A stretch of 64,000 nucleotides of DNA from the NCBI GenBank assembly GCA_000310025.1, contig FN649737.1:1435168-1499167 (forward strand), written 5' to 3'. Within the stretch, counting starts at the first letter, position 1. Each line of letters opens with the position of its first letter. Source of the stretch: Ectocarpus siliculosus. Taxonomy: Eukaryota; Sar; Phaeophyceae; Ectocarpales; Ectocarpaceae. Under the pieces are notes generated by a model that did no database searches, was not told the DNA's origin, and saw only the letters and a list, made by a program, of their open reading frames with translations. A program made the position numbers and the translations under genes. Of this stretch, positions 1,940 to 37,700 are shown one piece after another.

Positions 1940-4004
1940 GTACTACTGTGCTCCTGTTCGTCACCCTTACATATACCGCGTCCCCATCCCTGTGAGCCCC
2001 ACACATGGACCCACTGCTGCACCATCCTTGCCGCCGTGATTTATGGGTGTACACGCATGCTTGGAAGATCTTTGACCGCAGAGAGCCAGTTGTGGGGAAA
2101 AAAAACAAAAAAATTAACGCGGTCACGTAAGGGTTAAGAGCAGCCTCTACTGCCACCCTGTGCGAGAATTAATTATTTCTGTTTTCTCGAAGTCTTCCGA
2201 CTGGTTTCATGTGTCTTGTGTGCACTTTCTGGTGCTCTTGCACTTTTTTTTCAAAACCGGTCAACCTCAAAATAGGTTGTCGACGCGTTCTGTGGTCTAG
2301 TCAAATCGACTTCTACTACATTTATGTGCTACCATATGCTATGCTAGAAATGTTCGGATTCACAAGCACACAAAAGCTCTTGTGTGACCCCGGCTGATAC
2401 GTCACATGTATACACCAAACGGCGTGTAGACTGGCGCCAGAATAGATGTGACGAACACACACGCATTGGTAAATATTCAAATTGGAAAATTCTCTATGCC
2501 GAGACGTCCCATCGAGCATCGGATCAGCCACACACCTGTTGAACATATTTACAGGCTGACAATTACAGAACAGCAGTCTGGACGCCGATGCATGTTTTAT
2601 CCTGCATACGAGATCATCCACCACATAAGAGAGAAGCGCAGTCGATACTACTGCTGTACTGCAAAAGACAAACAGAGAAGCGTGCGATTTCAGTTAAGAT
2701 GGTTTCTACGTAATTCACACCGATCACGCTACACATGATCAGACCGGACATACCTAATGATCGCGTGATGTGAACTCTCGAGGAGTGAACGTGGAGGTTG
2801 ACGGGAAGTATAGTTGATGGCTACTGGAGAAATGAGACAACACTTTGATCCAATCAATACTGGACCGGGCTGAAGGTGGGGGTTGTGATTTTTCTCCGAA
2901 GCAGGACACAGCTTACGTTCACATATTATGTTGCCGGAAGGTGGTGGCGTTGTTTTGGGTTGTGCATCTCCATCGTTAGGGTGAAAAGTAAATTCCACCG
3001 AAGCACTGAGGAACGAGGGCCCAACTGCTAGGGTAGACCGAGATCTGGACCAAGGCAGTCGAGTTGGGAGGCATGACCCGCACTTTTTTAGTATGTGCAA
3101 GATGTTCAATAATTTTTGAAGGTCGTAGTATTGCGCAATTCCGACTATTTGCTATTGGAGTTCGTGATCTGGTAAGCATGCTAAACGAAAACCATGTTCG
3201 ATTCAATCCACCGGAGGACGAAAACGATACGGAAACAATGTCTTTCTGGATAAATACGATCGTACTTGAGTTCCAGATGGTAGGAGAAAAACACTAAGTT
3301 CACAGGACTACTAGAGCAGCTGAAAGCAATGCACACGGTACAGCAACTACAACATCCCCAATGAGCTCAAGCATGCAGAAATAGGAGATGAAGGGTATTT
3401 GCCAAAAAATACCCGAAAGGAAGGGAATATTCTGAGTGGAAGTTGTCGTTACATACGCATGCAGAAGCTCAAAGAGCGTCCGAATGTTGGTCGAGTCTCT
3501 TCAACTGGCAATACGGACCATGTTTCGTCTCCAAGGGATGCGTCAGCGGTCAAATGCAAATACGTAAATATGCTGCGGTTTGGGTTGAGGTGTACACCGA
3601 GAACTCCTCTTTCTGAAGCAATAGCAGAGGACGGTTGATTTGGGCTCATGAAGAAAATGACAGAATGAAGGAGTTTCCAAGAGCACCGCACTAACATCAC
3701 GTTTCCCATGTGGCAATCAGAGAAAGGGCACTTTGAATTGACTACTTGAGAGCACGAACGGTGCTCCATCTTGAACAACGTGCTTGACTTTTTGTTGCCA
3801 TAGTCGCGACGGAAGAGCCTAATGAAACAAGTAAATCCATGTCACCAAAGCTTGCACGTTGATGGCTGTGCGTTCTTCTCTTCACCGTCCAGCCTCTGGG
3901 CACCCTTGGCTGTGCTCAAGGTTCTGAACTCCGACGAAAACTGTTTTTTGTCACCAGTCGTTTCTGTTTGTCACTTGTTCCTTCCCTGCCCTCTCACCCG
4001 CTAG

Positions 4005-10895: not shown

Positions 10896-13800
10896 TCAAA
10901 TCGTCATGTTGATCACGTTACTAGGAGTGAGTCGTCGCCTTCGATAGAAGAGCACGTAGGCCGCGTCAGAGACGATCTTGTCTGGGGCCATCTCCTGCGG
11001 GGTAGGTGAACATCAACACGAGAGCAACACAAGGGAAACACCAGATATCGGACAGTGGAAGATGACAGCACCGGCGGTGTTAGTGTTGATATGTTTGGCG
11101 TTGTTCTCTCGTGGCAACACTTCGAGGGTTGGCGTTTCGTAGAGTAACGACACGGGGATTCCAATCACGCCCGTCAGCGGTGATGGGACACGATCCTGCC
11201 GCTGGTGTGACAACAGGAGGATCCAACGCAGCAGCACAGAAAACTGAAGTGCTTTGAAGTATATATTCTAGTACCAAATGACAAAGAGGCGGGTGTATCT
11301 GTTCCATGCGAGAGGCAAGAAAGCTTGCCTTCACATATCTTGTTGGTCGTATCAAATGTGCCGAGCAAAACATGTGAACAAAAGCAGCGGCATGGTAAGT
11401 AAGCACTTACCTCCACAAACTCGTCGTCGAAGTTGAGCCATGGGTGCTCCAGGCCCCAACCAGTAACTTCCTCCACCCCGTCCTTACTGCAAGGTGAAGA
11501 GCGGCAATAGGCCGTGTAGTGCCCCCCAGTCATGCCTCCCATATGGTTCACCACGCCGAAGAGGTCATACACCATGCCTGCCTGCCCTCCGCCCGCCTGG
11601 ATATGTATATAGCCGAAAGCCGAACAGAAGGACCGAGTGGGAGGCAACATCGTGTAAGAGACAATTCGGTATTGCCAATGGCTACATGATGAGCAGCCAA
11701 ATTGAGTACTGCCATGCCCTCCGAAGAAGTGCATACAGTATAAAGAAGATACAACAAGACCACATTTCAATATTGTTTTGAAGCGGTTCCCTGAATTTCG
11801 TGACACAGCCTTTGCCGCAGTAGCTTCGAACCCATATGTTATTCTTCAGCAAACGCGATCACCTGACACAGGAACTCGTTGAAATCACGCCATCCGCTCC
11901 ACAAGAACTGCCCGGAATACTTGAAATGGAAAACTTAAAAGTACAGCAGCGCAGCAACAGGTAGGTGAGCCCTTTCTTGCTACCATACGAGATAGACATC
12001 TCTTTCGCTGTGATCCTGTTCGGCTAACCAAGGACGGGTGGGTGTGATACACTTGCCTGATTCCGATGAGCGGAGTTGGATGACACGAAGCCCGACATGT
12101 CGAGACCGGAATGCGGGAACAGCACCAGCGTCCTGATCTTCTCTCGCCACCGGGCGGAGCAGTGGAAGCGCTTCATGTGGATAACCTAACCAAGTGTGTA
12201 ATGTAAGAGGACGGACCCACAGTTAAGAAATACTTGGCTAAGAAGCAGAGGCTCAAAATTATCACGAAAAAAAAAAAAAAAAAAAGGGGTTCACAAAGAC
12301 AGCTCAGCGGTGGATCCTAGACTACACTGGTACTCCTAATATAACAAAACCTGTGCTCGACAGCATTGGCGACGAAAAAAGAAACTGAGGGTCGATCCGA
12401 TGTTGACGTTTTTTATCTCCGGGCCCGCTCTGTATGCCCAAACGAGCCACGTGACAGACCGTCGTTCGCGGTGCATCAACACCCAATTTTCACCATTCAC
12501 ACCGCCAGAGAGCTTCTCCAAAAACCAAGACCATAAACGGCAAGACAAGTGTTCACGGGTCACAAGGAACCCCGCCTGAGTAATATTGTACGGAGGTTGT
12601 TTATGCACGCTTCTGAAACATTTCGGTGCCGTCAGGGACAAACGGAGCACTTGGACACGAAACAAAGCATGACACGATCCCACCCACTTGATGGTATCAC
12701 TAAGGTTTCCATGCTTCATCGTTCCAAGGGTCTGCCGTCGATGTGAAGATGGCAGGTACAGCTCTGCGGTTACCCTTGCGCATGTTGCCAAGCTCAGAAT
12801 ACTTCCCACTACTGTAACTCCATGGCACCTACGCTCCCAAACCGCCCGAACAGACCCCTGAACGCGAAAGAAGCCACCTTCGCGTCAGCCTTATACTGTC
12901 GTCCTGCATCGAGTCTCACCAGCACGTCAGGCATCTTCCAAAGGTCAATCTTCATGACCCCTCTCCTGTGCGCTTGGCAGCTGGAACAGTACCACGAGTC
13001 CTCCTCCTCGAATGTCTCCTCTCTCGTGTAGGCATCCAGACACTGCTCCAACGTCAGCCCGGAAAGGACAGACTATCCACAGTAGATGCCGCCAAAGGAA
13101 GCACAAAGCGGCAGAGCCGCCACAGACGCAGAATGGGCGCGTCAAATTCGATCTATCAAGAGCTCCAACACTAGGCTACGTGTGCATCCTGCGACGGCAA
13201 GAAGCACTGGTGTTGGTACATTCTTACTGGTTCAACATGCAAAAAAAGAACGTTTTTTTTTTATCTCTGTCGTTGTGACAATTGCCTGAACGTCTAGACT
13301 ATCGTTCCAACCAACGGGCAATCGGTACGTGAATCCCAGGTACAACACCGCCACCATTCGTGAATTGATTCTACTGCCCTTCTTCATTCAAAATTCAAAA
13401 ACAACCGCTTCAGTGACAGCATCTTCTTGACAAAACAACGTGCAACAACATTTCTTACAATATCCTGTTGCTATACAAAAAAACAGAAGGAAGGCAGCTT
13501 CGTCGTCGGCGCTGGTTGAAAAATATCACCTGCGCGTTGTTCTCCAACTCGAGGTATGAAGGGTGTTCGAAGGTGGCGGCGAGCACATCAAGGTAGTCCC
13601 TCCCGGGATCTTTCCACTCTAGCGCCAGGATGAGCTGAGTGTGAAATGACGAGCATGGCGAGAGCACACCACAAATAAAGACACTCGGTCAACACAAAAC
13701 GGCCCGAAAAAAGGGGACAACGAGGTGTGGTGCCCAACAAGACCTGGTCATTCTTGTGTGTAAAAAAACGGTTGATGCAATCCTGTAAGAGTGATTGATT

Positions 13801-16800
13801 GAAATACACGATAAAATCACCGCACCATGATGTGCAATTCTTCGAATGGTCTCCTGGTGTGTCAGAGCTGACCGGACTCGACACCATCGGAATCAATGCA
13901 GCTAGCTGTGGTCATCATCAAAACGACGCCATGCACTCCACAAACACCCAAAGGTTTGCCTGAGCTACTCTCACAGGAACATGAGCAAAACTCCGAACTT
14001 CGGCGAAAATACAAAGGTCTAGCCCTCTCTAGGCACTACGAGAGCAAACCGAAATGTCCACGGCAGGATGCGTCGGTACAACAAACAAAGCTGCACACAC
14101 CTTCGTACACAGCAAGGACGATGCCGCCCGCCACCTGTCGGGGACAAGCTCCACCGAACAGACCTCCGTGAGGGGGTTTTGCTTCAGCACGAACTTGACC
14201 GTGAAGGGAAGAAGTTGCGCCAGCTTTTCGTCCGTGATGTCACGCTCCAACCCCGCGGCCGCACGCGCTACCCAGGCAGCCGTAACGTCCGGCCGTTGAG
14301 TTCTTGGTCGCCAGTGTGCGAACGTCCCAACAGACAAAGCAGGCGGTTCACGAAATGTATTGCGTCGGTTGCAGCTATGCAGGTATGCAGGTATGCATGC
14401 ATGCGTATCACTTCGAGGTCACTTTTTGAGTAGCGAGAAATCGTGAGAGACGTGGCCGAAGACAAGCCAAAACGAATCGACTTGGAGGTGACCTTGGTAG
14501 TGCAGAGCCTACGATGTACATGGTACATGGTACTTTACCTCGAGCCTGAGGAAGCCCTAGCGGTCCTGTCCTTGCCCCCTGCCTTGAAGCTCCTGCCGCC
14601 GGAAGACCCCGCGACAAACCTCGACGCTTGCTGCACCACGAGACGCCAGAGGTATCGGGTGGATCGTGCCGGAGGGCATCTAACAAGAAAGGGCAACCCG
14701 AACAAATCCTTCACGGAAGTGCAACACGCAAGAACGAGAGATAGAGGGGGAGAGAGAGGGAGAGAGAGGGAGAGAGAGGGATAGACCATTGAAGACAACA
14801 GATTAGTGACATGGGACAAGAGGCACAAATAGGGAGAGGTGTTCACGGCATGATGAACAACATGCCATGTGTGGTATTTCTTGTTGTGATACCCGACAAG
14901 CTCACCCCGTGGACAGGCCGCTTCAATACGTGTCAACCAATACCCTACGCATGAGCTGCTAGGCTGGAGAGCAGCTCCCCCAGCAGGCACTAAACCACTC
15001 GTAGTACAAGTACATGGCCTGTAGTGAGCATGAAAGGATCCTCCCGGAATAAGCCAAAATACCCAGAGCCAGTAAAGAAAATCAGTAGTTCAGTATATTC
15101 TTAAGACCATACAACACTTGTTCTGCGTTTCAACCTTCCGCACGAACAACCAGCCGACCTGCCAGCAGCAGTCGCCAAAGCCACGTGCACGCAGCACGCG
15201 ACAAAAAGAATAAAAAATGCCGCGCGTGTCAAACTTTCGACAGAGATGCAGCCAGAGAGACCACACAAGCTGCTACCGTCCGTAGGCAAGCTCCACCTCC
15301 TGATGCAGAATCGAATGCTGTTCCGCAGGGGTCACCGGCAGCGCGACAATACACGGCGACCACGTTGTAACTTGTTAAACCTCGACAAGATGTCCTCCGA
15401 TGAGCAGGTTAACGATATTTAACAGGCTACCGTAGGCTAACCTTTGCCGTGACAAATCCAGGCGGCGGCTCCTTGGTGTCTCGTCTGTCCGCGTCTCCCT
15501 CCGACCGCATGCCGGGGCCGTCCCTGCGAGACGACGTGTCCGCGTACGTGTGTCAAAATAGATGAAGATGATGATGATGATGATGATGATGACTGCAGAG
15601 TAGGTGGCGACGAAGCGTACTTTCCGCAACAACCTACAACCCAAGAAAACGACCGACAGCAACCCAAGGAGCCCTCATGACCTGTGAAACCGCTTGCTTC
15701 AGCATTGCTAACCCGTGACGAGACAAGGGACATCGATTTGCTTCCTGCCCGGAGAATGCCGAGATACGATGTGGTTCAACAACGCCTTCTACGCGGGCTC
15801 CGAAATATAAATTGCCGAGAGCAAAATCGGGGTGCGCACCCGAAAAGAGCATGCCACACAGTCGGAAAAAAAAAACTAATTTTGAAAGAGGGCTCACAAC
15901 CCTTGGCAATGTCCATCGTGACGGCAACCTTGGTCCCGCAATCAAACCAAGGCCAGGAACAAATCACGACAGACCATCGTCGCGAGTTACAGCAGTAGGG
16001 GGTTAACATATCTTTCGTTGGACATATCTATCTATCTTCGCCTCCTACCTAGTGGAGGCAGGCTGCGGGTGTGCGCCCGAGGTCGGCACTCTGATGGTCT
16101 TCCGGTGTACCACAGGAATGTCGTTTGTACGCTCCTGACGACGAGTCTGTTGCACGTCGTAGTAATTGTTTGCCAAAACAAGAAACGAGGAGGAGCATCA
16201 AGATCAAAGGGATCATCAAAAGATGATGCTCGGAGATGGACATGCTACCCGTGCAAGCTATAGCTTGTGACAAGCACGGACGATGGTGCGTGCCTGAACG
16301 CCTGGCTGTGCATTACAAATATTTCGCTTATGCTGGTTTGGGGACCGTCAGTCGCATGACAAACAACAGGAGCAGTGGCATCCACTCCACTCCTAGCAGC
16401 CAAGCCAAATGTTTTTGTGTGCATACGTCTAAATTTCTGAGAGTAGTGTAACCGCACATCCATCAAGCACCGATCCCACTGATCGGGAGGAAGAACGAAC
16501 ACGACGGGCACGACAGCTTGCGCAACAACGCGTCCATTCGAAAACAAGCAGCGCTTCTTCGCACCTTGGTGAAGAGCGGCTGTAGCTTCTTCTCCCTCCA
16601 CTCCTGCTCGCCGTAGCTCTCATCCCATCTGGAGGTGAAGGCGTCGAAGTGCACCCTCACCAAGTACTCCGTCTTTCGCTTCTGATCCTCGCCCTTGCCT
16701 GAAAGGGAGGCCTTGGACGGCTTGTCTCCGCCTCTATCCAATGCCTTCGCCCGCGGGTTAATCTTCATGCGGTAGAAAGTGCAGGACCGTTGCGTGAAAA

Positions 16801-19800
16801 ACACACCAGGATAGATAACAGCGGTCATATCGTCGTGTGGTGGTGGTGATGACCTAGCTGTCTATCACTTTTGCAGCGCCGTCTGGAGTCGGAAGGGGGA
16901 CGGACACCAGCCGTCTGGAAAAACAAGGACAACTTACATCACAACCAGCTATCTTCGACGGCAAGTGCTACCACCATACGCTACACCACCGCGCTATTCG
17001 GTCGGGGGGGGGGGGGGGGCTGCCTAGAAATATTGCCCCCATTCCAGAGACGAGGACTTCGACAGATGTTCGTCGAGTAAACATAGACCTTTTGGCTTGG
17101 ACATAGATGGCTGGCTTTGGCTCCTTACAAAAACCTCAAGTAGTAGCCTAGGCCTGCAATTCAGCACCGTTGTGTACCACACCAACATGTGCAGCCTGCA
17201 TTGCCTCACCTCCACAACCGTTGCAGCATACCAGCCCCCCTGCCCATCGAGCGCGTCTAGTCTCCAGCCAATCTCTAGGTCTCTCAGTCTAGTCGGGAAG
17301 GAGGACATGCACCTCTCATCCGGCGTGCGGTTATCTGGCGTGGACGTCGGAGGCCTGTCGAAACAAAAATACGCCAAAAAAAATGATGTAATCGAAAGAG
17401 CGTGAAAGCGAGGTGGTGTTGAGCATGCGCCCCCCGGCAGACCATGACCATGATTAATCACACCGCATCCTGGGAAAATGCTGCCAGTGATGGCAAGCGG
17501 TGTTTGATTCCGTACTACACAACCAAACGAGGCAGCGGTGCCGCGACAAGTCTTTCTGGGTGCCCTTCTCGCTCGTCGTGCAAAGAGTGGTGCCACACGG
17601 ATCCCTAGGGAGAAGCAAAAAATGTCGAACAATCATTAGAAAACAAACCGCCAAAAGAAACCAAGTGTTGTACTTTCTCGAAGTACCAATACAGGACTCA
17701 CAGTGATAGACCAGGGCACTGTGCGGTGACACACGACGGCGGGGTCAGCCTAAATATTCCGCAACGTCGACGTGATGTGACGTGACGCTAGACGCCATAT
17801 CCCGTCTCACCTGTCGTTGTCCAAGTCCGTCTCCTCTGCCTCCTCGTCCTCGCTCCCATCCGAGCGCGCCTCGGCAGCAGCAGTCTCAGGTACCCCCAAC
17901 CCCTCCTTCAGCGTTTCCTTCAGTGGCTCTGGCGAAACCCCCTGACCTTCTTCTGCGGATTCTGCGGCACCCCCTTCCCCCTTGGCGGCAGTGGTGCTGC
18001 CACCATTCTCAACTGGCACTACCACGTTTGGGGCTGGCGTCCCGCTAGTCGTGTTGCTTGGCTCTGTCGGCTCCGCCTCTGTTCCCACGGGCAACTCCTC
18101 CTCTGATAGTGCTGCAGCACCTGCCGCTGTAGCACCTGCTGCTGTTGCTGCTTCTGGTTTTGTTGGTCCTGAACTCGTGGGAGTTGGCACTGGAGAAACC
18201 GTGGCTTGTCTTGACGCGGAGGTGCTCGGTTTGGCACGTCTGTTGAGGTTGATTTCGCCCTGCTGATGACGAGGTTTTATGCGGCAAGGCAAGACGGAAA
18301 AATTACAGGACAACCCGAGCGGTAGTTGGCCAGGTGTATTAATCCCCACAATAACTACGGGTTGCAATAATACCTGCTAGACATGAGTGCTGTTGTCTCC
18401 CCATTGGCAACACCCGCAAAATCATCCAAAGTATGTGGTTGTACGCCAAGAACTGGACCATCGTCTTGACTCACCATCTCTAGAGCAACAACCCACGTGT
18501 CGTCTCGCAGCTCTGTCAGCAGCTCCTTGTCCTGCATAACCTTGATTCTGTCATGGCATCCAAATCGCGGCATGCATCGCACAATTACACGCGGCCGTAT
18601 GAGTTGGAGTGGGCGATAAACAAGGTCGATATCGACCGTCATGTATATCATCCTACTTGTACCTTGCACACTAGCTCAGAGAAAGGAAGCTTGGGGTACC
18701 CCGCGACCAGTAATGTCGACTAACCACGCCCATGCACCCAGAGGAAACCATTTACCAGCAAGCGAATCAACAATATTCGTTCATCACCGTGCTGCAAGAC
18801 ACGTTTCTCACGCCGTACGAAAGCTGAAGCTTTCCACTCACTGGTTTTGCTGCAGGATGGCCACCACAATCGATACCGTCGGTATTCCACACAGATCCGA
18901 CAGCGCCCGCTTAAGGTCGCTCAGCTGCGACGGAAGCAGGATGCGCAACCAAAAGGTCAAACACCAGGGGTGGGGAACAGCGGATGGGCATCGTGTCGAC
19001 CAGAGCAGTATGCATTTTTTGTTACAAGAGTCACCCGAGCTCTCCAAGGAGGTGACACAGCAGAGCGGGTTAAAAGCATACAAGCGCACCACATGGCGTA
19101 CTCGTCGCTGCTCATGGTAAAAGCTACAGAAGGTCAAAGATGTCCATGATCTATTATTCCCTTCACGCCCGCAGGAACTCCTCTCTAGCCAGCTACGCGA
19201 AAGTTGATGCCGTGAGAAGAAAACAAGGGCATTGGTGAAGCTCACCTCCCCCAGTCGCGGCAGCATCATCCCGTACTGCACCGGCACCAGCTGTCTTGGG
19301 TTGCTAAACTGGGCCCCTCCCCCATCTGCGGTGCGACGGAGCACAATTAGCAGCTCGCGGTAAGAATGGATGTGGTAGAGTCGACAGAGATACACTCAGA
19401 ACAAAACGGAATTCCTAACGCAGGTGCAGGAGGGCAGTGAGGCGGTGTGGTAGATCCGCTGCTAGAGCGAGTGAGCGTTAATCAAGTCGGCACAAGCCCA
19501 ATCATCGTCGGCTCTACGATACCACCTTCCTTGCGTGGGGCTTTCGGCAAGCTAAACACACGATATCACGTGCGGGTCACACTTGTGATGGGTGATCACA
19601 CTTGTCATGGGTGACCGGGGAAGGGGAGGCAAGGCCTCAACACCAGCGGCCACCAGCTCAAATGCTTTATTTTTCCATGCTGAACTCGGGGAAAAAACGC
19701 AGTATGAGCCGACAACCAAAGTCTGCTTTCCCACGTGCCGGCTAGTACCGACATCTTACCGCTAGCCATCGCACCGTCTTCTCCGTTGAGCCCGCTAGAG

Positions 19801-22414
19801 CGCACGAGGTATCTTGTTCGGATCCTTGGGAGCATCACCACCGCAACCATCTTCTCGTTGCGGACAGGAATAGGTACCGACAGGTACATGAAGGGGTCGA
19901 AAGTGACCGACTGTGCAGACCACGCAAAGGCCAGACAAAACCAGGCAGCACAAATTGACGGAGGTCAGTCTAGCGGACTTCGTTTGTCATGGGTAACCAC
20001 GCCCATCTTGCACTACAAGCGAAAAGAAAGCAGTAGGCTAGGGTGCATCTCGGTATTGCGTGCAAAAAGCGCTGGAGCGGTGCACGCTGTGTTGAGCCCC
20101 CCTTGCCCTGGCGACTTACTGCCGCCAAAGACGTCAAAATATTCAGGGAGACGTGGCAAATACGTAGCTTCATTTTCCTTCATGAAGTGCGGTGCGGTGA
20201 ACCATACCGTGAACCACACCGTACCGCACCTTCTTGTTGCACACGGTGCACCGACACTCCATCTTGAGCTGCCCCTGGAACAGGTCAACGATGACACTCC
20301 TGTTCCTCTGCACGTGCCTGTCCCACGCCTCGTCGGCTAGGTCCTGGTCTGATCGACCTGACTCCGCGTCGTCGTCGTCGTCGGGGGCGGCTACGTAAGG
20401 CTTGTCGATCACCCTGTTCACGTCCTCGTGGAGGGCATCCAGCATCTCCGCCAGAAACTCCTGTTGAGTGTTGAGTGTTGAGTGTTGAGTTTTAGTGTGT
20501 GTAGTGTCGCACGGGAAACGAAACATGTGTCGTTGCAGCGCAGTCTCTCTTCATGCCACCTGGCTTTGTATGACCTAGAGACAATAACCACACGGAGTTT
20601 CTTTGCAAAAATGCAAAAACACAAAACCCGCAATATTGCTTCAAAGTTGACGAACGGAGTCTCGCGCACCTTCATGACATGTCTTCCCCAAAAACGAAAA
20701 ACAAATGACAAGAAACAAAAAAAACAACATATCCCAACCCTGGGACTAAGCCGAGCTTCGAACTCACGACTCGACGCCAAAAGCTTGGGCATCCAAGAAC
20801 ACGAAAACATGCACGAGGTTTCAGAATACGAAAACATGCACGAGCGTTCATAGCAACACGGTACCTGAGAATCCTGCTGCTCGTTGCCGGCGAACTGCGG
20901 CTTGTACTTGATGAGACCTCTCTTGAACTTGCTGGGGAAGATGCACAGGTACTCTTGAGACCAAAGGGACTTCAACAGCGAAGCGAAGTCTTCCACGAGC
21001 TTGCCCTGGATGCACGACGGTGCCCAAACCGACCAAACGGATTATCAATTGTAGTGTACCGCGTGCGTGTTGGCGGGTTGGGCACCATGGCATGCGAGCA
21101 AAGGGGTGGGTGGGGAAGCCAAAAACGAAGCTATTGTTACTAATAGATCGCCACCGTGGGTCGTTCAAACATATCTCGCAGGCAACCAAACAAGACCGAA
21201 CGCAAGGGGTCTGGGTCCTGTACAAGTATCTGCTTGCGGAGGCAGCATGATCGAGCGTCATCGCCACCCAGGTAGAAAAGGCCAGCAAATAAAAGCAGAC
21301 AAGGTAGATCTGTACCAGCGCCGCTGACGACGGGTGCCAGAGGAGCATACAATATGACTGAAACAATGTGAAAAAAGAAGAAAATAGTAACCCCAAGGCC
21401 GTACCAGCAACGAGCACGGCACGATGCAGAGGTCGGCCAGCACGAGAATGAAGCCGCAATTTTCGTGCAATTAGAGGTGCCACACACAACGGTGTGGTGA
21501 CACAACACACATCGGGTAGGGTAGCTTCTTTCTCGTCCACACCGCGGTTCTGCACAACGGACAGCAGTACTGTAGTGGAAATTACCTGAGTTCCCAGAGG
21601 GTTGTACTTGTTCACTTCCGCCGCCCACATGTCCGACAGCAGGTACGCCCGCACCAGCGGCGTGTGCGACAAGCACTGCACGGCAGAGTTCAAGTAGCAC
21701 GTGTTGCCCACGTTCACCAACCCGCAAGCGCCCGGTACCGGTGGCTTTCCTGGCGTGTTGCTCCTTCTGTTCAACGCACCCCCTCCGTAGTTGGAAATCC
21801 CATCCGCGGTGCTGCCCGTCCCGTTTGTTCGTGGCATGCTCTGAGAGCGGGCGCCCCAGCCGTTTCCGTTTGAGGCATCGCCGGGGAAGCGCCCCACCGG
21901 TGGCGGGAATGTGTTTCCTCCAGGCTTGGAGGAGCTTGGAGCAGGTGCTCCGACTCCGCCCCTGATAGCCGTCGCATCCGGCGATGCCTCCTGCCAAACA
22001 AAAGGGGAACACGATTGGAAAGGTATCAGATTCACATCACGTCGGGCCGGCATGGGATGGACTGGCGTCCAACAACCAAAAGAAGTTACGGGCATTTTTT
22101 GACGGCGTTCATCAACCGCCCACAATCTCGACCGCGTCTGCTTTACACACGTCATCAGTGTAGCAGCCCAGGTCAATACGGCCGCGAACGACGCATGCCC
22201 ACTTCGATGGTGATCAAGAGGTCCAGAGTCATAAGTGTATTGTAGCAGTACTGCTGTATGCATACCTCTTCCGCCTCCGTGTCGCCATTGCCCTCGTTGG
22301 TTGGTCTGAGTGCTGGTGGTGCGGGCACAGCGGGAGCAGTGTGGCTGAACTCCGGCGCTAGCTTCAAGCTCTTGCTGTCGTACCTGACGTGGCCAAGGGC
22401 AGACGGAGAGCGAA

Positions 22415-22474
<60 letters not shown>

Positions 22475-25400
22475 CAGCGTCAACGCAAGGCGGAGTTTTG
22501 AACGGCATGAGCACGAGATCGTGGATCAGGGGGGCAAGCAACTCCTTTCCTGCGCGATCTCCAGGTGCACGGCTCTTTCCGTCTCGAATAAACAGTTTGA
22601 CAAACCGCAACGCACAACCACAGCCCACGGCCGTAAACCAAAGATCGAACGCAAAAGAGACAAGAGAGTCTTGGACAACTCCCGTCGGAGATACTATTCA
22701 TTGCCCGCTGGTGCCGGGAGATCTGACTTTCCGCATGAAGCCGAAAAAAATTCTAGCTCACCACTCATCCCACTGTGGCGCAAACCGATCGAAGTGCACC
22801 CTGACTCGCAGCCTCCTTCGAGAGGGGCCTCCTTGCCTCGGTCCTTCCTTCCCACCCACCCCACCATCTCTCTCTTTGCCGGAACTCCGGCGTTGGCGTT
22901 GGCTCTGAGAAGACCCAGACCTTCCTGCGCCCGCTTTCGCAGCCGATCTGCCCTCGTTTCTATCTGAGGCATCGCCAGGCTCGAGATGCTCGACCTCTTG
23001 GTTCGCGCCCTCCCGAACGGGCTCTTCCGTTGGCGGGTCAAGCTCAAGGCGTTGGCGTCGGTTCTGTCGAGAATAGACAAGGAAGGAGCAGTAGTATACA
23101 TGACAGGCGAGAGAGAATATGTGGGCAAAGAGCGACAGCTTCAGGGCACCCTCTGGCTGCATTGTTCCGAAGGGTTGCGAGGGGAACAGTAAGGAATACA
23201 CGGTAATAGCAGCAATGATTGGTGGTGCGTGGAAGCAGACGACCTTCCGAGAGCGCACAGCTTATAGCTGGTCAGCTCAATGTTCCTTCGGCGGCGGAGA
23301 CTGGCAATGTTAAGTTGAAGTACATCCAGTGACAACAACCACGCGGTACCACGACCAAAAGCAGGGTCGCACCACAAGGCATAAAGAGGTGGCGTGTTGT
23401 TTCCGAGTGTTGCAGTGAACCGCGACGTCGACTGTGTCTGTGTTGTAAGGTTTGATAGGCCTTCCTTGGTCACACGGCGGTAGCACTCACGCTCTTCTTC
23501 CTCCCCACCGGCCCTTCGGAGTCCACGATCTTGGAGCTGCTTTTCGACCCGACCTCCACCACCTGAGAAAGAGACAACGATCACGGGTGCTTGGAACTCT
23601 CAGGACCGTAAGAGTGACGACCAGGGGCTGCTCTGAAATCGGGCAACAGCCAGCATGACGTACACCTTGCTCTATTGTGCTTTTTCGAAGCCCTTTCGCG
23701 TGGCGCGATTCGATCACGGCGAACCCGATGCACCCAAGCAAGAGGGGTCGGCAAAACGCCTCTTCCAACAATTGCAATGTCAAAGTCACTCTAGCCCACC
23801 TGTCCTCGGAACCAGCGGCCCTGGTAGTCCATGGCATCCACTCGGTCGTTTTCGCGGAACTGTCTGAAGCCCGGGCTCTCTATGTACTTCCGTCGTTGCC
23901 ACTTTCCGTCCGGGTTTTTGTTCTCAACCATCACCTTCTCGCCGCCGATAAGGCCTAGTGCCGACAGCGTCATACCCTGTGCTCGCGCAACGACAAGGAG
24001 GGCGGCCACGTTACCAAAACGCACGGGGAGCGCAGCACGCGATCCTCCGACACTTCAACGTCCAAACAAACGTAGGAGCTACACCGTATCATCCCGCGGA
24101 TGCCTGCCGCGACCTGGTACTCATTGCCTCCGCACACCAGTGGAAATAAACAGGATGTTCGTTACGCCAAACCAAACGGAGGAGAATAGCCCCTAGTCTA
24201 GCCTAGAGCAGTCAACGAAACTCCAGACGATCATTCGTGAGAGCAAAATGCGACGCGCGAAAACTGGGACGAGTATACTACATATCCTCAGACAACCTCG
24301 GTCTTCTCTTGCAGAAATAAACCCTCACCTCTTCTTCCGTCTTGACTAGCCTCCACCGATCAAGGCCGGACTGCGGGTCCACTCCCCCCAACTCCCGCCC
24401 CCCACCATAGCTAAAACGAGGCCGGCAAAACCCGGGTGCTGACGATGGCTGGTGAAAAATTTTCGGCGTCACGAGATACCACAGACAGGATGCCAATGTC
24501 GTAGAAACAGGAGAGAAGCGTGTGCACGAACAGGGAGAGCCAATTACAAAGTCGTACGGGGGAGCTGATTTCCACGCGTCTGACACACGGCGGAGTTTGC
24601 TGCTGGCATGCTGTCCCGGAGCCATCGCGGGGGTCCATGGTAGGGAGTATGACAACCAGGGGGTGGAGTAACAAGGGGTGCGATACATACCACAGCCTGC
24701 GGAAGAATAGGCACTATTGTATTTGCTAGGGGTGTGGCGATGAGGGTGTGTGATAACAAGGGCGTGGGACACCTGAAATCACAATGGATCCATACATATA
24801 TTAGCATCGTTTGCAAGTCACTTGCTGGACCCGGAGTTGAACACATGAATGTCCACAAAACAAGGCGGGTCTCACCACTTGCCTCCACACGGGGTACACG
24901 AGTACACGACAGAAGCTCCCACACATGCACCGGTTGAAACATTTTTCGTTCATCTTTGGAGGTGCCTGTAAAGGAGCAGGGTCTGTACATTCCCGGCACG
25001 ATGTGGTTCCCGGTGTTGCGTGTTCTCTGTATGTGCAAGATCATGTCCCTTGACTATCATGCCGAGGTGACAAGCGGGGCTTCGTGGTTGCAAGCGGGAT
25101 ACCCTCAGGAGGTAATAAAGCGACCCACGTGAAATTCGGTTGTCGATATAACGTACGTAACACCGGGTGTGGTATGCTATGCGAGGAGCGACAATGCCGC
25201 ATCCTCTGTGTGTGCTGTAACAGGCGTTTTATCTCTTTAATGCCTCTTAAGTACTTCATTTCGGTTTGACTCAACAATCAAGTCAAGAGAGACGTGGGCT
25301 TTACTTCTCTCTTGGGTTGCCCTCGAAGGGTACTTGTTTTTCGGTATCTGTACGCGGAAGTCAACAACAAACAATCAAATCAGCAAAATGAACAACGTGT

Positions 25401-28400
25401 CTCCCGAACTCACCGCGTGCACGCGGGGAGTGTCGATCAGACCGCTTGTACTGATCTCCAGCACCCATAACCGAACTTGTCCCGTTCGATTTTGACTGGA
25501 AACGTCCCGCCTCAGCGGCGTCTCCCCGTCGCCAACAACATCTCCTTCCTCTGAGAGCCGCTGCTCTTGCACGACGTCCGCGTTTTCCAACACCGGATCC
25601 TGATATGCGCAACATGCAAACACGCGGAGAGACTGATCTCCACACCCTTCAACCTGCTGCTCTCAAATCTGCGACAAGGATTGGAACTATTAAAGCGCGA
25701 CAATATTGCGCACAGACGCCGGAGCTGGCATGGTAAAGCACATGTGCACACGACTTCGAACAAGCGATGCAACCAAACACGTCGTTCACGAAGAGCGATA
25801 AAAGCAAAACAAGTCCCACCTCCTGCGGGATGGTGGCAGCGGTCATCGATAAGCCCCGGCTCATCCCTTGCAGACGTGAGCTGTCCAACACGTCGGCCAG
25901 CATGTCCCTGACGTGCACGTGGTGTGACGTGAGCACCAACCTCTCTCGCCCACCCGGTCTGCCCGCGGGGTCGCACATGCTCACGTGCAGGGCCAGAGGG
26001 TACAAGTCGACCGCAAGGCTGGTCGAGACAGCAGCATACGCCGGGCGAAACAAACGAAATAAACGGTCTGGGTGACACCACCATTCGCAGACAACGGAAA
26101 GCTTGGAAATCGAGACTGACATTTCACGATGATGGTGCACGATGACTTCTGCCACCACCTGCGTGCGGACACGCTGCTACGGGCTAACCACACGTTCAGT
26201 TCCATTCCAACGTGACAATACCATGATTACGCTAAACTCTCGCCAGCACAACGGAGAATCTGCGCTAAAAAGACGTTCAATCAAGCAGGTTTGAGACGAT
26301 TTTTTCGCATATGGCCAAGGTGAACCGCGGTTGACATCCTACAGCAGTACTACGTGCATGGTGGACATGCGCACGTTGTGGCGACAGAGACAACGGGCGT
26401 CGTATTCCCACCGACGGCATGGGTCCCGCTTGGGGGGCATCGGTTTTCAGACGGAGGAATACGCAGGCGTCACGAGCAGCAAGCCCACAAGCCTCCCCCC
26501 CCCCCTCACCGTGCGGTCGATGGTTCAGCCTCAGCGTCGTCCCCCCCTCCTCTCGCCTTCTCCGGGAGCTCGAGGTTTGAAGACACGTTCACCACCTGTC
26601 GAGCAAACACGGGCCCTCCACCGTACCAGTCCACCATGACATCCCACAGCGACTTCGGCAACATGACGTAGTCCTCGCCAAGGTCTAGGTTTGGAGCAAC
26701 TTCCCACTCAGCTCCACCCTGTGCGATTGGTGATTGGTTTTTCATTTGCGCCAGATGGTGCGTTGCATTACACGTTGTGAGATTCACCAGCACAAGACAC
26801 ATGGCAAGTTGTGGGCAGGGTACGTGGGCAAGGGACTTGGTGAGGATTGTGGAAGAAATTCAACGCAGAAGGTTTGCAAGTCTGAGTTAGCCAGCACGTC
26901 TTGAAAAACAGTGGTTCAGGCTGGAGGGTTCTCAGTCAAGGACCGTAACTATCTGCCGCTCAGAGCAGAGCAGATGCCATGAAGTTCAAGCAGTAAATCT
27001 ACGAAACGGCACAGATATTTTCCGGGGGCGCCTCTTGGCTGTCTTCTTCAACGATGCAACTGGGACTTAACCGATCAACAGCGTTCCTCTGACCGTAACC
27101 TACGAACTCGCCACGGCGCCAACGCGTACAAGGTATTTTGATATTTCGGACCCCGTCTTAGTTCATCTCTCCAGCGCACTGCACAACGGCAGAGAACACC
27201 TGATTAAGCCACTAAGCCTCACGAACAGACCCACGCCTCACCTGCAAGCTACTGTTGTCTATTTCGTGTGGTCGCCGGGCAAGCGTGGTCGGCACTGCTC
27301 TTTCTTTGCCTGCTCCCGCTAACCTCTCCATCGCTGGCGATTCTCCTTGAGCGTGCCCGTTCCCGTTACCAACGCCCATAGAAGCAACCCCATCGCCCAC
27401 GACATCCCCAGGGCGTACTGCGACGTCTCCCCCCTCTGCCCCCAGCGTCACAGCAGGCTCATCTGCGGGCCTTTGATCCAAGTATCCTGGGGTCTTGTCC
27501 AACCCTAAAGCCGTTCGCTCCGGCACGCGCAGCACGTCTTCCTTGGTGAGGGCAGCGTAGTTTGACCAGTACGACCACCATGGCGAAGCGACTAGGCACA
27601 TGCACTGGGCCTCTTCAATGGCGTATTCCATCAGATGTGCCAGCACCTGCAACGTGTGTGGAAAATACGCCCACAAACCCACTATTACAAGAGAAAAGCA
27701 CTTCCAATAATCCAGTGGCAAGAAAACCCGGATGTGTGGCGCATCTTGAAAGAAATACGAAAGGGATGCGCACGGATCGTGATAAATCAATGCCCCATGA
27801 CCCTCGAACCAAGGTATCCCTCCGTAGCACTAACTACCGTGAGCACCGCGAGAAAGAAACTGCGTCCGACCAAACATGACTTTGACCCACGGAAAGCCCC
27901 TGAGGCAAACTCCTTCACGTCGAACGTGCAACACCGCCGAGTCAGTGCTCGCTAAAGCCGTCTCCACGACCAACGAGCTAACAAGCCGCGTAGAAGAACT
28001 GCATACCTTGTCCTTCTCCTGCTGCGGCGAGGGCAGAAGATAGAACGGCCGGAGAGCGCGGTCCAGCGCCTCGTCGGACGCATGAAGCTACACGAGGGCG
28101 TAGAAGGGCAACAGGAAGTGAGAGTGTAAGTGTATTATAGTAGTTTGGTGCACGAGGGAGCCTTCGTCAGAATAAAAAGGCTGCTCTGCTGTTCTTGTGA
28201 ACGAACTGTGCAGTTTGCATATCGAGTCCTCATATGTTGCGTGCTTTGAAAAAAGCACGTGCCATTTCCGGCCGATACTTGGTGAGCACGAATCATCACA
28301 TCAAAAGCACTGCTGAGATCTCTACCAATAAGTGGGCGTCGGACGTCTCAAGTCTAGGGCCTCATCAAATACTTTGCAAACTAATAATCCCAGGTATATT

Positions 28401-30701
28401 TGTGTATGACAAGGATCGGACTCACGCCGATGAGGACAAAACGACGTAGAACCACGTCGTTCTGTGAACGTGAACGCGCCGAGAAAGTAGCCCGCGCTCG
28501 GCAAATAAAACCATTTCAAGTCGGTTCTGCATACGACCACTCGCACCTCTGCCCACTCGAAATATTCGGACAGCAGCAGCCCGGAAACTCCAGAGGTCTT
28601 CTGGAAGTGCGCGTGGTTCGCATCCCCGGCAGATAGCCCTAACTGTTTCTTGAGGCCAACAAGTTCCGCCTGTTACATGGAGGAGAGGTGGTTCGTGTCC
28701 AAGAACCAGGTGAGAGGGGAGGGGGAGTGCCAGAGGTACGAATTGTGAAAATATGTCATTCGCTCAAGAAATGCCTCTGCGGCGCCTACACAACAATCAA
28801 TACAGCACGCGCTAAGCCCGCATTCCCTCCTGCACGTACATCCGACAGGCGCGCCGTGGTTGCACCGGAAGCGGAACTCGCATCTCGAGCTCCTCCGTCC
28901 GCCCCTGTACCGTAGTGCTTAGGTTGGGAGGCCCCGGAGAAAAGGTCAAACAAAAACCGTAGACGTTCTTCTCTTGAGCCTCGGCAGCACAGCGCAAGGG
29001 CGCGACAGAAGTTCCGAAAGTCCAAGGAGCCTCGTCCGACGCAGTCGAACAGCAGGAAAGCCGACCTTTGGACCTCCACCGGTAGCCCCTAGAGAACGGA
29101 AAACCAAGTGTGGTACGATTTCGGTGGAACATCAGAAGAAGGTAGGCAACGCGTATGTCTGGCACCTGTGGAATCACACAGGCATGCAGCAAGTAACGAC
29201 CCGCAAGATGCTCTGACAAATCAAGCCAAAGCTGCACTGCCGCAGACGTCGCAAAAGCTTAACCCCAGTCGCACCTGCACGTCAGGGAAGACCCTCAAAA
29301 ACGCCTCCTTGTCCATGCCAGCACGCGCACCGCCGGAGTCCCCCAAAGACACCACCTGGCCGCCCTCACCGCTTCCCGCCCCAACCTTGAGCGGACCTCC
29401 CGTGGCACCGTCTCCCGGCTTCTTGCCGTCCAACTCTGCTGTCGCTGTCGCTGCTCCGTCACGGGACGCTGGAGAAGCGCTCCCATCTTCCCCGAAGCTG
29501 GCACTCCTGTCGCGGTTAGCGCTGGTTGCGGCCGACGTTGCCGTGCCCGAGTTGGAGGAAGGCGCCGCCAGGCTGCCGAACATCTTTGACGCGATGGTAT
29601 GCTTCACGGCCTGTGCCCTCCCCAACCGGAAACTCCTTTGCAGGAGGTTCACCTCGCCGTGGCGCCACCGGTTGAGCAGCTCATTCATCTGGGCAGCGGG
29701 TTGACAGCGCACGTCGTCAGAATGATTGGTACATTGCAAGGATCATTGCTGGAATCCAAAAGCAGCGGCCAAGTTAAACGCCAGCCCACGTGCCGACGGC
29801 CCTAGACACGCAATACGCACACCTTGAACGCGAACTCGCGTTTCTACTATAGATAGTCCCGTTGTAAGGCTGACGTCTTTTCATAGGTCGGCAGCTTTGC
29901 TGTCGATGCCAGGTAGTCAATGTACGCAGTGCACATTCCGATATACGTGTAATCGTGGTGTTTAGCGATGTGCGATACGTGTGAAAATATCATCCGTGGG
30001 GTAGGACTCAAACGGGGAAAGCCGGTTGGGAGTGTATTCCAACAGTTTTAAGTCTGTAGAGTCGCATGTTTGATGCATTGCAGGCAGTTGCCTGGAATAG
30101 GCGGAGAGCCCCGAAATGGACAATGGCATGGCATTCTTCTGAGAGCAGCGCTTGCACCACCGGTTACTGCTGTGTTTGGAGGGAAATGCGCCCTCAATGA
30201 GGAACAGAGATGATATTTCTCTGCTGAAACGAACTCCAAACCACGAAGTACATTTGTGAAACAGCACAGAAAATCAGAGTAGCCTAGAAAGGCTGTGAGC
30301 TCGTCGAAAACAGCTACACAAAGAGGTCTGTCTGCAGTGAGAAAACAACGCGTGCTGCTCTGGAAGTGACGTGAACTTCAGCACCGCATGCCCCTCCTTG
30401 ATTTATGGTATAGACTGTACTCCAACCACGATTACAGCGGTTTGTGAATCTTCCACGGATACCAACAAGGCGACACGTACGGCGAGATTCCAAAGCCAAC
30501 CCTCACGTCCGTCAACTACGTATTGTACAGCATTGATACCTGTGTACATGCGTGGCAATCTAACACCCACGTCTTTGCTTAAAGCTGAGTGCAACAGAAC
30601 TATGTAGGTAGATGACTTACGTTGTCTTGCATGGGCGCCGGCAACGGAGTAGGGAAGCCCCCAGAGGGCGGCTGGGCGGGTTGTGAGGAGCAACATCCCA
30701 T
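10896..30701 (-). CDS. Large ubiquitin-specific protease, USP32/USP4-15-like, with EF-hand, DUSP, UBL and chromo-barrel modules
   Basis: Deubiquitinase of the C19 (USP) family, about 1,950 residues from more than 30 exons. Order: MGCCSS start (exon 30701-30621), a long helical and low-complexity exon (29688-29275), degenerate EF-hand (29088-28840), DUSP (27646-26510; WWSYWSNY, IDNSSL, DYVMLPKSLWD), UBL (26018-23800; LAVDLYPLALHV, VMVENKNPDGKW), first chromo-barrel-like module (23976-22266), Cys box GNTCYLNSAVQ (21990-21586), more catalytic exons (21005, 20460 with a CxxC zinc ribbon, 19910), inserted UBL (19394-18475), low-complexity linker (18262-17811), second chromo-barrel-like module (17354-16565), then 14679, 14302, 13634, 13072 (YCSSCQAHRR), 12185 (VIHMKRF), 11919, the His box GGHYTAYCR with WLNFDDEFV (11596-11411) and the last exon 10994-10896. 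Catalytic Cys, His and Asp/Asn are all present. Phase breaks show that at least one small exon is missing at 24.4-25.4 kb and one or more at 14.7-16.5 kb. One intron appears to use a GC donor (12057). Confidence 0.85.
12267..12285 (+). repeat. A(19) homopolymer
   Basis: Nineteen consecutive A on the + strand, inside an intron of the minus-strand protease gene, where it is a T tract in the transcript. Confidence 0.9.
14725..14783. repeat. GA-rich imperfect microsatellite
   Basis: Repeats of GAGAGAGG/GGGAGA units in a protease intron, about 50 bases upstream (in transcript sense) of the exon at 14679-14539. It forms a CU-rich tract in the pre-mRNA. Confidence 0.8.
15561..15592. repeat. (GAT)n microsatellite
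   Basis: About ten GAT/ATG trinucleotide units, one interrupted, in the part of the protease gene where exon assignment is incomplete. On the minus strand it reads ATC repeats. No coding use is supported. Confidence 0.8.
17004..17019 (+). repeat. G(16) homopolymer
   Basis: Sixteen consecutive G inside the protease intron between the exons at 17354-17210 and 16762-16565; a C tract in the transcript. Confidence 0.85.
20462..20490. repeat. Four tandem TGTTGAG heptamers abutting a splice acceptor
   Basis: Four perfect copies of TGTTGAG lie directly against the acceptor AG of the protease exon 20460-20230. In the transcript they read CTCAACA repeats and supply the pyrimidine-poor tract at that 3' splice site. 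Confidence 0.8.
22412..22472. repeat. (GA)n microsatellite
   Basis: About 60 bases of nearly pure GA repeat. On the coding (minus) strand it is a CT tract about 30-90 bases upstream of the acceptor for the exon 22383-22266. Confidence 0.9.
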
Positions 30702-34700: not shown

Positions 34701-37700
34701 GAATCTCGAGACTTGTCCAGAGAGGGGCATGGCGCCTCCCATTGACAGGCAGTCGGTGGAAGCAGCTGGAGAGGTGAGTAGTAGGTGGTGACGGTGAGTG
34801 TGGTTGATCCTTATCTTGTTGGGATTTTGCGTGTTGTATCGGAACAACCGAGCCCGCAGCTCGCTAATACTCCATGATCCTTCGAAAACGGCATATTTTT
34901 GTACGAGTACTGTTTTTTAAGGTCCCCGCTGATTTTCCGAGGTAGACACGGCGAGAACTTGGTTCCGTTTGTACAATCCTGGATATACATGTAGATATTT
35001 TCGCGGCATACCATTCGCGCGAGTCGTAGTGGTGTCTTCCTCTTTTTTTTCAATATTTGTTGTGATGGTGCGTTCCTTGATTTCTGTTTTACTGGGTTAG
35101 TCCTTGTCGATGGAGTTCCCACTCGTATCACACGATGTAACGGGCTGCCATGTGCGGACGGTATCCCGCAAAACGGTATCTGGCTCGTGCGTTTTCGCGA
35201 CCGATACATTCCAAGTCAACGTCAGGGTGCTTTTTCAATTCCCAGGGCATTCCCTGAATAGACCCGTGACCAGTCAATACCCCGCACATGTCCTGCTGTT
35301 CGTGAGCATCGTTGCTATTCCCCTTGTCGTCTGTGCCACTTTATCGGCGAAGGTTATCTTCACGTACGATGTTGAGTGGGAACTAGACGCCAAAACCACC
35401 TGGTCGCGGAGATGGGAAAATTACCTCAAGGGCAACCCTGAGGTACGTGGCGCACCGTGCGATGTGTTCAACTGTGGGTGCACAGTCAATAGTAGCCAAG
35501 CAAGGACAAGCGGCTCATGCACGGACAAGCAGCGCAATACTGGGAGGGGTCCTGCTAGCGTCCGAAGTGATGCCTTGAGAGGTTTATGGACGTGGTGTTT
35601 CAAGATGTTTGAAGGCATGCAATGTTCTCTTGTACATCTATTCTCCTATTCTATACGAAGTACTTGCAAGAGCCGACTTGACATGAAAGAGGTAACTAAC
35701 ATTTGCGTCACTTTCACCGGAGCGCTCAGGTGCAAATGCGGGAACTCGGGGGTCTGTCTCTGTTGCAATATGAATGACTACGAAGAGATGTGTCTACTTC
35801 GTATAAGTTTACTGGGCCATGCTGCCATTACATATTGCAGAGTACAACAACTCTACCCGCAGTCAGTCATGACATCTACCTTAGGTATGCGGTTTTACCC
35901 CTCCTATTTACAGTAGTACATTCAGCGAATCCCCCCACCGCAACCCTGAGGACGGGGGGGCCGAAGGCCTATATATATTACGATGGTTTTCTTCTTCGTT
36001 GTTCTTCCTGCCGTGCAAAGTCGGGAAGCAGATCCAACGTCCTCGTTCACGGCGTGCAAAAGGTTTGGTAGGTGCAACGTGCCACCCGAAACGACGTTAT
36101 GGTGCACAATGATGAGACCCTTGGCGCGTTGTCTCGAAACGTCCTGTGCAGCGCGTTGGTGCAACGCTCTGCTGTCCACGAGCTAAAGGCAAAGTGTGTG
36201 GGTGACTCTAGAGAGGCGAGCGCAGAGGACGCGGGACCCTTGCTCGGCAAAGCTGGCGTAGTGGGAGTCAGTTGGCAACGCTACTCTTTTTGTTTCGCTG
36301 CTTCGAGAAGTCCCTCCCCCCCGTGTTTAACTTGTCGCCCATCACGTGTTTCCCGTGCTCGTTCGGTGACTTGCAGAACGAGATCCACTACTTTTCTATC
36401 GTGAACTCCCTGATGATTACCCTGTTCTTGACTGGAGTGGTGGCCATGATCATGCTCAGGACGCTAAGGAAGGACATCACTAACTACAACGAGGTAGGGT
36501 TGGAACGGGTATCCAATCCTTGCGCCGGCTGTCCTCTTGCGATCGCTTTGCTTTCTGGGCTGGCAGCTACAGCACATGGATCATTTTGGGTACAGAACCC
36601 CCATTTTGGTTTGGTGTTAGATATGCTCAAATTGCTTGTTCATCCTGTTGAGTCACTTTGCCATATTGTGTAGCGGTGGCAGCTGGTTGCACGGGTCGTC
36701 CAGTTGGTGACCTCGCAATCCCCTTGATATTGGAGCGTGATGTCAGATCTCGGTGCAGTTACACGAATATTTCTTCTCACAGCAGTACGCCTAGCCAAGT
36801 TGACGAAACGATAAATTCCTGAGTACCGCAGTTTTTGAGTTGACGTTCGACGAGGAAAAGGAACAGCTGAGTCTTTCCGCGACAGACAGGGAAGGCAAGC
36901 ACCAGAACAAGTGGAGAAAATAAAAAACGTCTTGTTTACCCTCGTCCGGTGCGATTCCCGCCCATGTATATCCAAAGTACGCCGAAACGAGTATCGAACT
37001 TGACATCCAGGGTAGATGAGATGACAACACACGCGTTTCACTGCTGCTGTTCGCTCGCTGAACCAACGACACCCTCGCTAAAGCCTGTGCTGTGCTTTTG
37101 CTTTTTCGTGGCGCGGTGCAGATGCAATCCGTTGAGGACGCTCAAGAGGAGAGCGGCTGGAAGCTCGTGCACGGAGACGTTTTCCGCCCGCCGTCCTTCA
37201 GCCCCATGCTGCTGTCCATCATGTGCGGTACCGGCATGCAGGTGTTGGCAATGACGCTGTCGACCATCACCTTCGCATTCTTGGGCTTCCTCAGCCCGGC
37301 CAACAGGTAAGCAATGCGTGACAGCTTGCACTCCAACCTGTTGTGGGATCTTTCTAACATAGTTGCTTTGTTTTCGATTCTCAACAAGTCTTGAGGTGGC
37401 AACTAACGCTGCTCAATTGTTTGCCGTTGGTGGCTTCGCAGGGGCGGCATGTTGACGGCGCTGCTGGTGCTCTTCGTGCTGATGGGGTCCTTCGCCGGCT
37501 ACTGGTCTGCCACCATGTACAAGTTCTTCAACGGCAAGATGTGGAAGCGTTGCACGCTAGCCACGGCTCTACTGTTCCCCTCGATGATCTTCGCGATCTT
37601 CGCGGCTCTCGACATTATGGTGAGCGAGGGCGCGTGTGTTTCGGTTAGCACGAGTTACATCGCACGAGAAACACCGTATTCCGTGTTGTGTGATACACCA

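Follow-up and report, generated by a model that had tools for sequence, protein, structure and literature searches.

Human USP32 combines EF-hand, DUSP, ubiquitin-like (UBL) and ubiquitin-specific protease (USP) domains with a C-terminal CAAX box, according to the available excerpts of PMC10485055. In USP4, as described in the accessible part of PMC4243247, the DUSP-Ubl unit, the linker and the insert of the catalytic domain set the rate of ubiquitin release; the DUSP-Ubl unit binds the insert, and linker and insert are both required for full activity and turnover. Analyzed here was a 64,000-nucleotide stretch of the Ectocarpus siliculosus genome (contig FN649737.1, positions 1,435,168 to 1,499,167 of the forward strand), hereafter the window. 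Its minus strand carries, from 30701 to 10896, a gene for a predicted USP whose product very probably includes two relatives of the Tudor, MBT and chromo-barrel domains, called barrel modules 1 and 2 in the following. In the open-access literature searched, no USP is described as carrying a Tudor, MBT or chromo-barrel module.

The first Tudor domain (Tudor-1) of PHF20L1 holds monomethyl-lysine in a cage formed by Y24, Y29, F47, W50 and Y54, together with D23 and a water-linked E56 (PMC13285377, excerpts). Each single aromatic cage mutant lowered or abolished binding, and Tudor-1 of PHF20, which has Arg at position 24, gave no detectable histone peptide binding among the peptides tested (same excerpts).

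Gene model and catalytic core

The window minus strand from 30701 to 10896 is, on its reading frame and splice sites, a single gene for a large USP, as had been proposed in a first-pass annotation made from the letters of this DNA. One spliced frame runs from an ATG at 30701 to a TGA at 10898-10896 through 33 exons (coding span 10896-30701; 1961 residues), and its phases are consistent throughout. Exons were picked by eye at consensus splice sites, after which phases and frame were verified by script, and the peptides quoted in the first-pass annotation are indeed encoded on the minus strand where it had placed them. The 32 introns are 170–965 bases long; 31 are of the GT-AG type, and the remaining one, GC-AG, follows exon 31, which ends with CAG at 12057 (donor CAG/gcaagt, with the intron bases at 12056-12051). 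All features of the gene given below lie on the minus strand.

The UCH domain spans amino acids (aa) 1001-1946 of the product (Pfam E value 1.2e-63, above the cut-off). The closest solved catalytic domains are those of USP15 (7.8e-91) and USP4 (2.3e-90), each of which aligns in two blocks; those of USP15 cover residues 1-194 and 785-950 of a 951-residue query. The core is split by an insert of ~590 residues (~1193-1782 of the protein), and its second half resumes near residue 1783. The Cys box, the His box and the zinc-ribbon cysteines are aligned with those of USP15 and USP4, as expected of a member of the USP family (peptidase family C19), and from these alignments the protein belongs to the USP4/11/15/32 class of deubiquitinases and has its catalytic residues intact. 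Like USP4, USP15 and USP11, among which its closest solved catalytic domains are found, it has a DUSP followed by a putative Ubl, a linker and a core interrupted by a large insert, but it differs from them in having barrels in the linker and the insert, an EF-hand-like N-terminal region, and an insert of ~590 residues rather than the ~285 of USP4.

Two barrel modules and their kinship

Module 1 (aa 727-886, 22344-23865) occupies the last part of exon 11 (23976-23800), exons 12 (23562-23491) and 13 (23063-22762), and the first part of exon 14 (22383-22266). It is located in the linker from the DUSP-UBL unit to the core, directly after the putative UBL, and upstream of the Cys box (Cys1010), as the first-pass annotation had it, and its two halves are separated by a loop of ~100 residues. 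Module 2 (aa 1474-1564, 16565-17284) is encoded by exons 23 (17354-17210) and 24 (16762-16565). It had been described as lying within the protease fold; it does fall between the Cys and His boxes, but in the insert (~1193-1782) and not in the core fold. Both modules were recognized by profiles and by hidden Markov model (HMM).

The modules resemble each other (BLASTP E values of 5e-7 and 2e-5 for the halves), with 39% identity once the module 1 loop is removed. Searched singly, they gave modest matches: in Pfam, module 2 matched Tudor-knot (0.0085, below the cut-off) and module 1 the MORC2 chromo domain (0.0098), while in phmmer searches of the solved structures the top match of module 2 was PHF20L1 (0.069) and that of module 1 was L3MBTL3 (0.11), followed by PHF20L1 (0.31). 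A profile built from these two modules only, with the module 1 loop removed, found PHF20L1 first among the solved structures at 5.8e-5. When modules from two other loci of the genome, C138 and C17 (see later), were added, the four-module profile reached PHF20 at 4.5e-14 and L3MBTL3 at 5.1e-14, a result that is helped by the C17 row, since this passes the MBT cut-off by itself.

A control HMM was built from four modules from elsewhere in the genome, leaving the window sequences out (Z set to 1000 for protein searches). Among the 2367 open frames of the window, it ranked those of exons 24, 23, 13 and 11 first to fourth, with E values of 0.00046, 0.0017, 0.0057 and 0.11; the fourth falls under the inclusion threshold and is barely separated from the chance frame that follows it (0.27). 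On the whole protein the control HMM matched just the four module halves, at 5.7e-14 together and at 9.7e-5 to 0.054 singly. It is independent of the window modules in content but not wholly in choice, because two of its four rows were found through their likeness to them, one of which (C17) was also found by Pfam.

Likeness to the PHF20-type Tudor/chromo-barrel/MBT superfamily was thus found over both domain halves, in the solved-structure profiles as well as with the control HMM, and at the level of sequence the barrel kinship of modules 1 and 2 is established. The first-pass assignment of both to the chromo-barrel/Tudor/MBT kind is upheld by the window-only profile and by the recovery of all four halves with the control HMM, and the nearest relative can be given more sharply: by alignment, the modules are relatives of Tudor-1 of PHF20/PHF20L1 and of MBT/chromo-barrel domains, with PHF20L1 Tudor-1 closest for the two jointly and for module 2, and L3MBTL3 first for module 1 alone. 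Compared with PHF20L1/PHF20 Tudor-1 and the L3MBTL MBT repeats, their best structural relatives by sequence, the cage positions are largely kept; the differences are that those barrels belong to chromatin proteins and these to a protease, and that module 1 has its ~100-residue loop.

The methyl-lysine cage

The cage of PHF20L1 was mapped without gaps, by sequence, onto six modules (modules 1 and 2 and those of C138, C16, C17 and C2), taking the positions in order from D23 to E56. Module 1 has D,Y,F,F,F,W,E at these positions and is the sole one of the six in which all five cage aromatics are kept, which makes it the best candidate for a reader. Module 2 (D,G,Y,F,F,W,E) keeps four of the five and may lack methyl-lysine binding. 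Elsewhere the aromatic positions number four of five in C138, three in C16, three in C17 and two in C2. Methyl-lysine reading by the barrels is put forward tentatively on the strength of these residues, with its chances judged somewhat below even.

Barrels and USPs elsewhere in the genome

The genome searched comprises 189.5 Mb in 492 contigs. Used as protein queries against it, modules 1 and 2 matched only themselves with confidence. UCH exon matches numbered 59 at E values up to 0.01, on 21 contigs, and six USP loci were read, in part: the window gene, C62, C138, C20, C456 and C16. Barrels are associated with four of these six, which is not to be taken as a frequency, because C456 and C16 were chosen for their nearby MBT matches.

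The C138 locus (C138:664000-673999, ~7050-5050, minus strand) encodes a paralogue with a DUSP, a UBL, a barrel spread over three exons and then the Cys box. Its barrel (LIDARDSDKNWFESRVTEVD...VHFLGWSEKWDEVL; PHF20 at 1.2e-5) occupies the same linker site before the Cys box as module 1, so the window gene is not a one-off, and the shared site argues, at least from sequence, for an old part that has been kept. The paralogue differs from the window gene in its catalytic insert, where the module HMM found no barrel. A second WY exon group of C138 (~4600-3520) is a possible but unconvincing further barrel ahead of the catalytic domain, as it matched no Pfam barrel family and had an HMM E value of 0.16.

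At C16:5837000-5845000 (3700-3840, plus strand) there is a single-exon MBT-like barrel (LKVGDWLDARDSDGTWCVAQVVRIEGESMRVHFQGYHSRYDED), with UCH exons ~28–31 kb downstream, and at C456:450500-458499 (~4650-3770, minus strand) two barrel/MBT-like exons lie ~20 kb upstream of a Cys box on the same strand. These modules probably belong to giant USPs, that of C16 to the N-terminal part, given the shared strand, the distances of 20–31 kb and the coding-like exons in between. The same module type is also found in C17 and C2 genes with no UCH match near them. In C2:925500-930500 an open frame of 659 residues (4010-2031, minus strand) holds one barrel that is split by ~250 low-complexity residues, a long internal loop as is also seen in module 1. 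The C62 locus (C62:2500-12499, ~4570-3640, minus strand) encodes a USP that has a DUSP and, before the Cys box, a MYND-like zinc finger recognized by eye; no barrel match was found in the 10 kb read there, a stretch without its insert, nor in the 8 kb read of C20. Five catalytic domains were read through the middle (window, C138, C20, C456 and C16), and a barrel was seen there in the window gene alone. The module type thus recurs in the genome, and several deubiquitinases probably make use of it.

Proposed function and alternatives

With one module in the linker and the other in the insert, a role in docking or gating is a reasoned hypothesis. Two PHF20-Tudor/MBT-type barrels, built into the regulatory parts of a deubiquitinase, would dock it through a bound partner and possibly gate it, a proposal for which the chances are considered evenly balanced. 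Both modules would bind a partner, candidates being mono- or dimethyl-lysine peptides of histones or other proteins, and the DNA of nucleosomes, which PHF20L1 binds, and this binding would bring the protease to its substrates. The ligand may also raise or lower turnover, because the DUSP-Ubl unit, linker and insert jointly control ubiquitin release in USP4; such gating of turnover, argued by analogy, is viewed as unlikely. Methylated non-histone proteins located at membranes are as possible as chromatin among the targets, since the N-terminus may be lipidated (see later). If the barrels bind a mark, the protein would be a natural design that couples deubiquitination to lysine methylation within one chain, and modules familiar from chromatin readers of animals would have rewired part of the ubiquitin system in this lineage. 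An extended form of the proposal, also held to be improbable, is that sensing of methyl-lysine or nucleosomal DNA by the barrels switches DUSP-UBL-driven ubiquitin release, and does so in several USPs. A single polypeptide would then read one mark and erase another, and the window gene, C138 and, probably, the giant C16 and C456 USPs would form a mark-directed family.

Several observations weigh against docking by a pair of ligand-binding barrels. Taken singly, the modules stay under the Pfam gathering scores (module 2, Tudor-knot, 15.2–16.4 bits versus 20.8; module 1 with its loop removed, MORC2 chromo, 7.3e-6 and 26.1 bits versus 27), although a gathering score is a curation threshold and not a structural feature, and in the window-only profile the independent E values of single halves (0.54 and 1.9) are not significant. 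No relatives were confirmed outside this genome, where viral contigs were scanned with catalytic or module exons. The equivalent of Y24 is Gly in module 2 and Ser in C138, and the possible N-terminal lipidation may not favor a nuclear location. The tandem Tudors of PHF20L1 itself bind DNA and lose their methyl selectivity on nucleosomes (PMC13285377, excerpts).

The last of these points makes DNA binding a serious rival. The barrels could be docking surfaces only, for nucleic acid (nucleosomal DNA or RNA) or for ordinary proteins, and not for methyl-lysine, an explanation that is possible but on balance unlikely. It would suit module 2, which is short of one cage aromatic, and the Arg/Lys clusters in the module 1 loop (GRKKSNRRQR, RQRRSSGKER and SRRRLRVRV), yet the loop has 22 K/R and 16 D/E over 101 residues, and module 1 keeps the five cage aromatics together with the equivalents of D23 and E56, whereas C17 and C2 keep three and two aromatics. 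These kept residues would likewise not be needed if the barrels were purely structural, with module 1 as an extension of the DUSP-UBL unit and module 2 as one of the insert, fixing their geometry with no ligand. Such a role, rated as quite improbable, would be in keeping with the barrel directly after the UBL in the window gene and its C138 paralogue alike, and with the regulatory nature of the linker and insert in USP4 (PMC4243247, accessible part). That the region instead comprises two or more genes, the joined frame being an artefact of modelling, is very improbable indeed: the model is least certain at exon 1 with its start, but 33 consecutive exons follow one another with matching phases, consensus splice sites and introns of the size given above, the domain order is that of a known family, and module 2 is flanked by the halves of a single USP core.

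N-terminal region and remaining exons

Exon 1 (30621-30701) begins MGCCSSQPAQPPSGG, a possible start for N-myristoylation/palmitoylation; the initial MGCCSS presumably fits the N-myristoylation motif. It is the least certain exon, as an acceptor lies just before it (before 30702) and there may be an upstream exon, or a start at Met 28, where exon 2 begins. Exons 2-5 (28007-29688) encode a degenerate EF-hand region of the USP32_N/calcineurin B-like kind. It is related to calcineurin B/NCS proteins (5.9e-5), and its match to USP32_N (0.0045, 17.3 bits versus a cut-off of 27) is below the cut-off. The first-pass annotation listed an EF-hand part, but a canonical one was not borne out: the Pfam search of the protein gave no EF-hand family match in this region, and calcium binding is doubtful for that reason. 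The DUSP domain (aa 333-495, exons 6-7, 26510-27646) has an internal loop and passes its Pfam cut-off (7.8e-13, 49.1 bits versus 29.3). The UBL that follows it, encoded by exons 8-10 and the first part of exon 11 (23866-26018) and ending VMVENKNPDGKW, is weakly supported by its position and by a Ubiquitin_3 match at 0.24.

Human USP32 has its domains in the order predicted for the window gene. The order had been considered undescribed, but USP32 is itself made up of EF-hand, DUSP, UBL and USP domains (PMC10485055, excerpts), so only the barrels are unusual. In addition there is the sub-cut-off match to the USP32 N-terminal domain. The differences are the two added barrels, which the available excerpts of PMC10485055 do not mention for USP32, and the lack of a Pfam EF-hand match and of a CAAX box. 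The window protein ends NVINMTI, with no C-terminal CAAX prenylation box, and is for this reason regarded as a USP32-like member of the USP4/11/15/32 class and not as USP32 itself.

In the catalytic region, exon 15 (21586-21990) carries the Cys box with the catalytic Cys1010 (codon 21699-21697), as placed by the Pfam UCH match and the USP15 alignment, and exons 16-17 (20230-21005) hold the remainder of the first core half with the zinc-ribbon cysteines CRCTVC. The end of the first half and the start of the insert are on exons 18-21 (18475-19910), where, from the position in the USP15 alignment and by analogy with USP4, there is probably a second ubiquitin-like domain; the Pfam search gave no match for one in these exons. 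Exon 22 (17811-18259) is a low-complexity part of the insert, exons 25-29 (13530-16146) encode the rest of it, and exons 30-33 (10896-13042) the second core half with WYCSSC, the His box (His1893, codon 11521-11519), NFDDE and the terminal NVINMTI. Two other exon choices were discarded. Exon 27 was set at 14679-14620 but was replaced by 14708-14539, which joins exon 28 in phase and restores a frame that we take to resemble USP15 after the insert. An extension of exon 21 beyond its own donor puts the following exon out of frame, as judged by inspection. The intron before exon 14 contains a CT-dinucleotide tract (~22416-22472, minus strand) near the acceptor of this module 1 exon.

Other features of the window

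No tRNA was detected when the window was scanned for tRNA genes. A Cupin_8/JmjC-like exon (48675-49145, minus strand; Pfam 1.4e-10) presumably resembles KDM8/JMJD5. On the plus strand, the exons of an EMP70/TM9SF endomembrane protein are present at 37110-37634 (3e-22 and 1.1e-15), and a ribosomal protein L34 domain at 46736-47254 (3.9e-18) ends a longer open frame.
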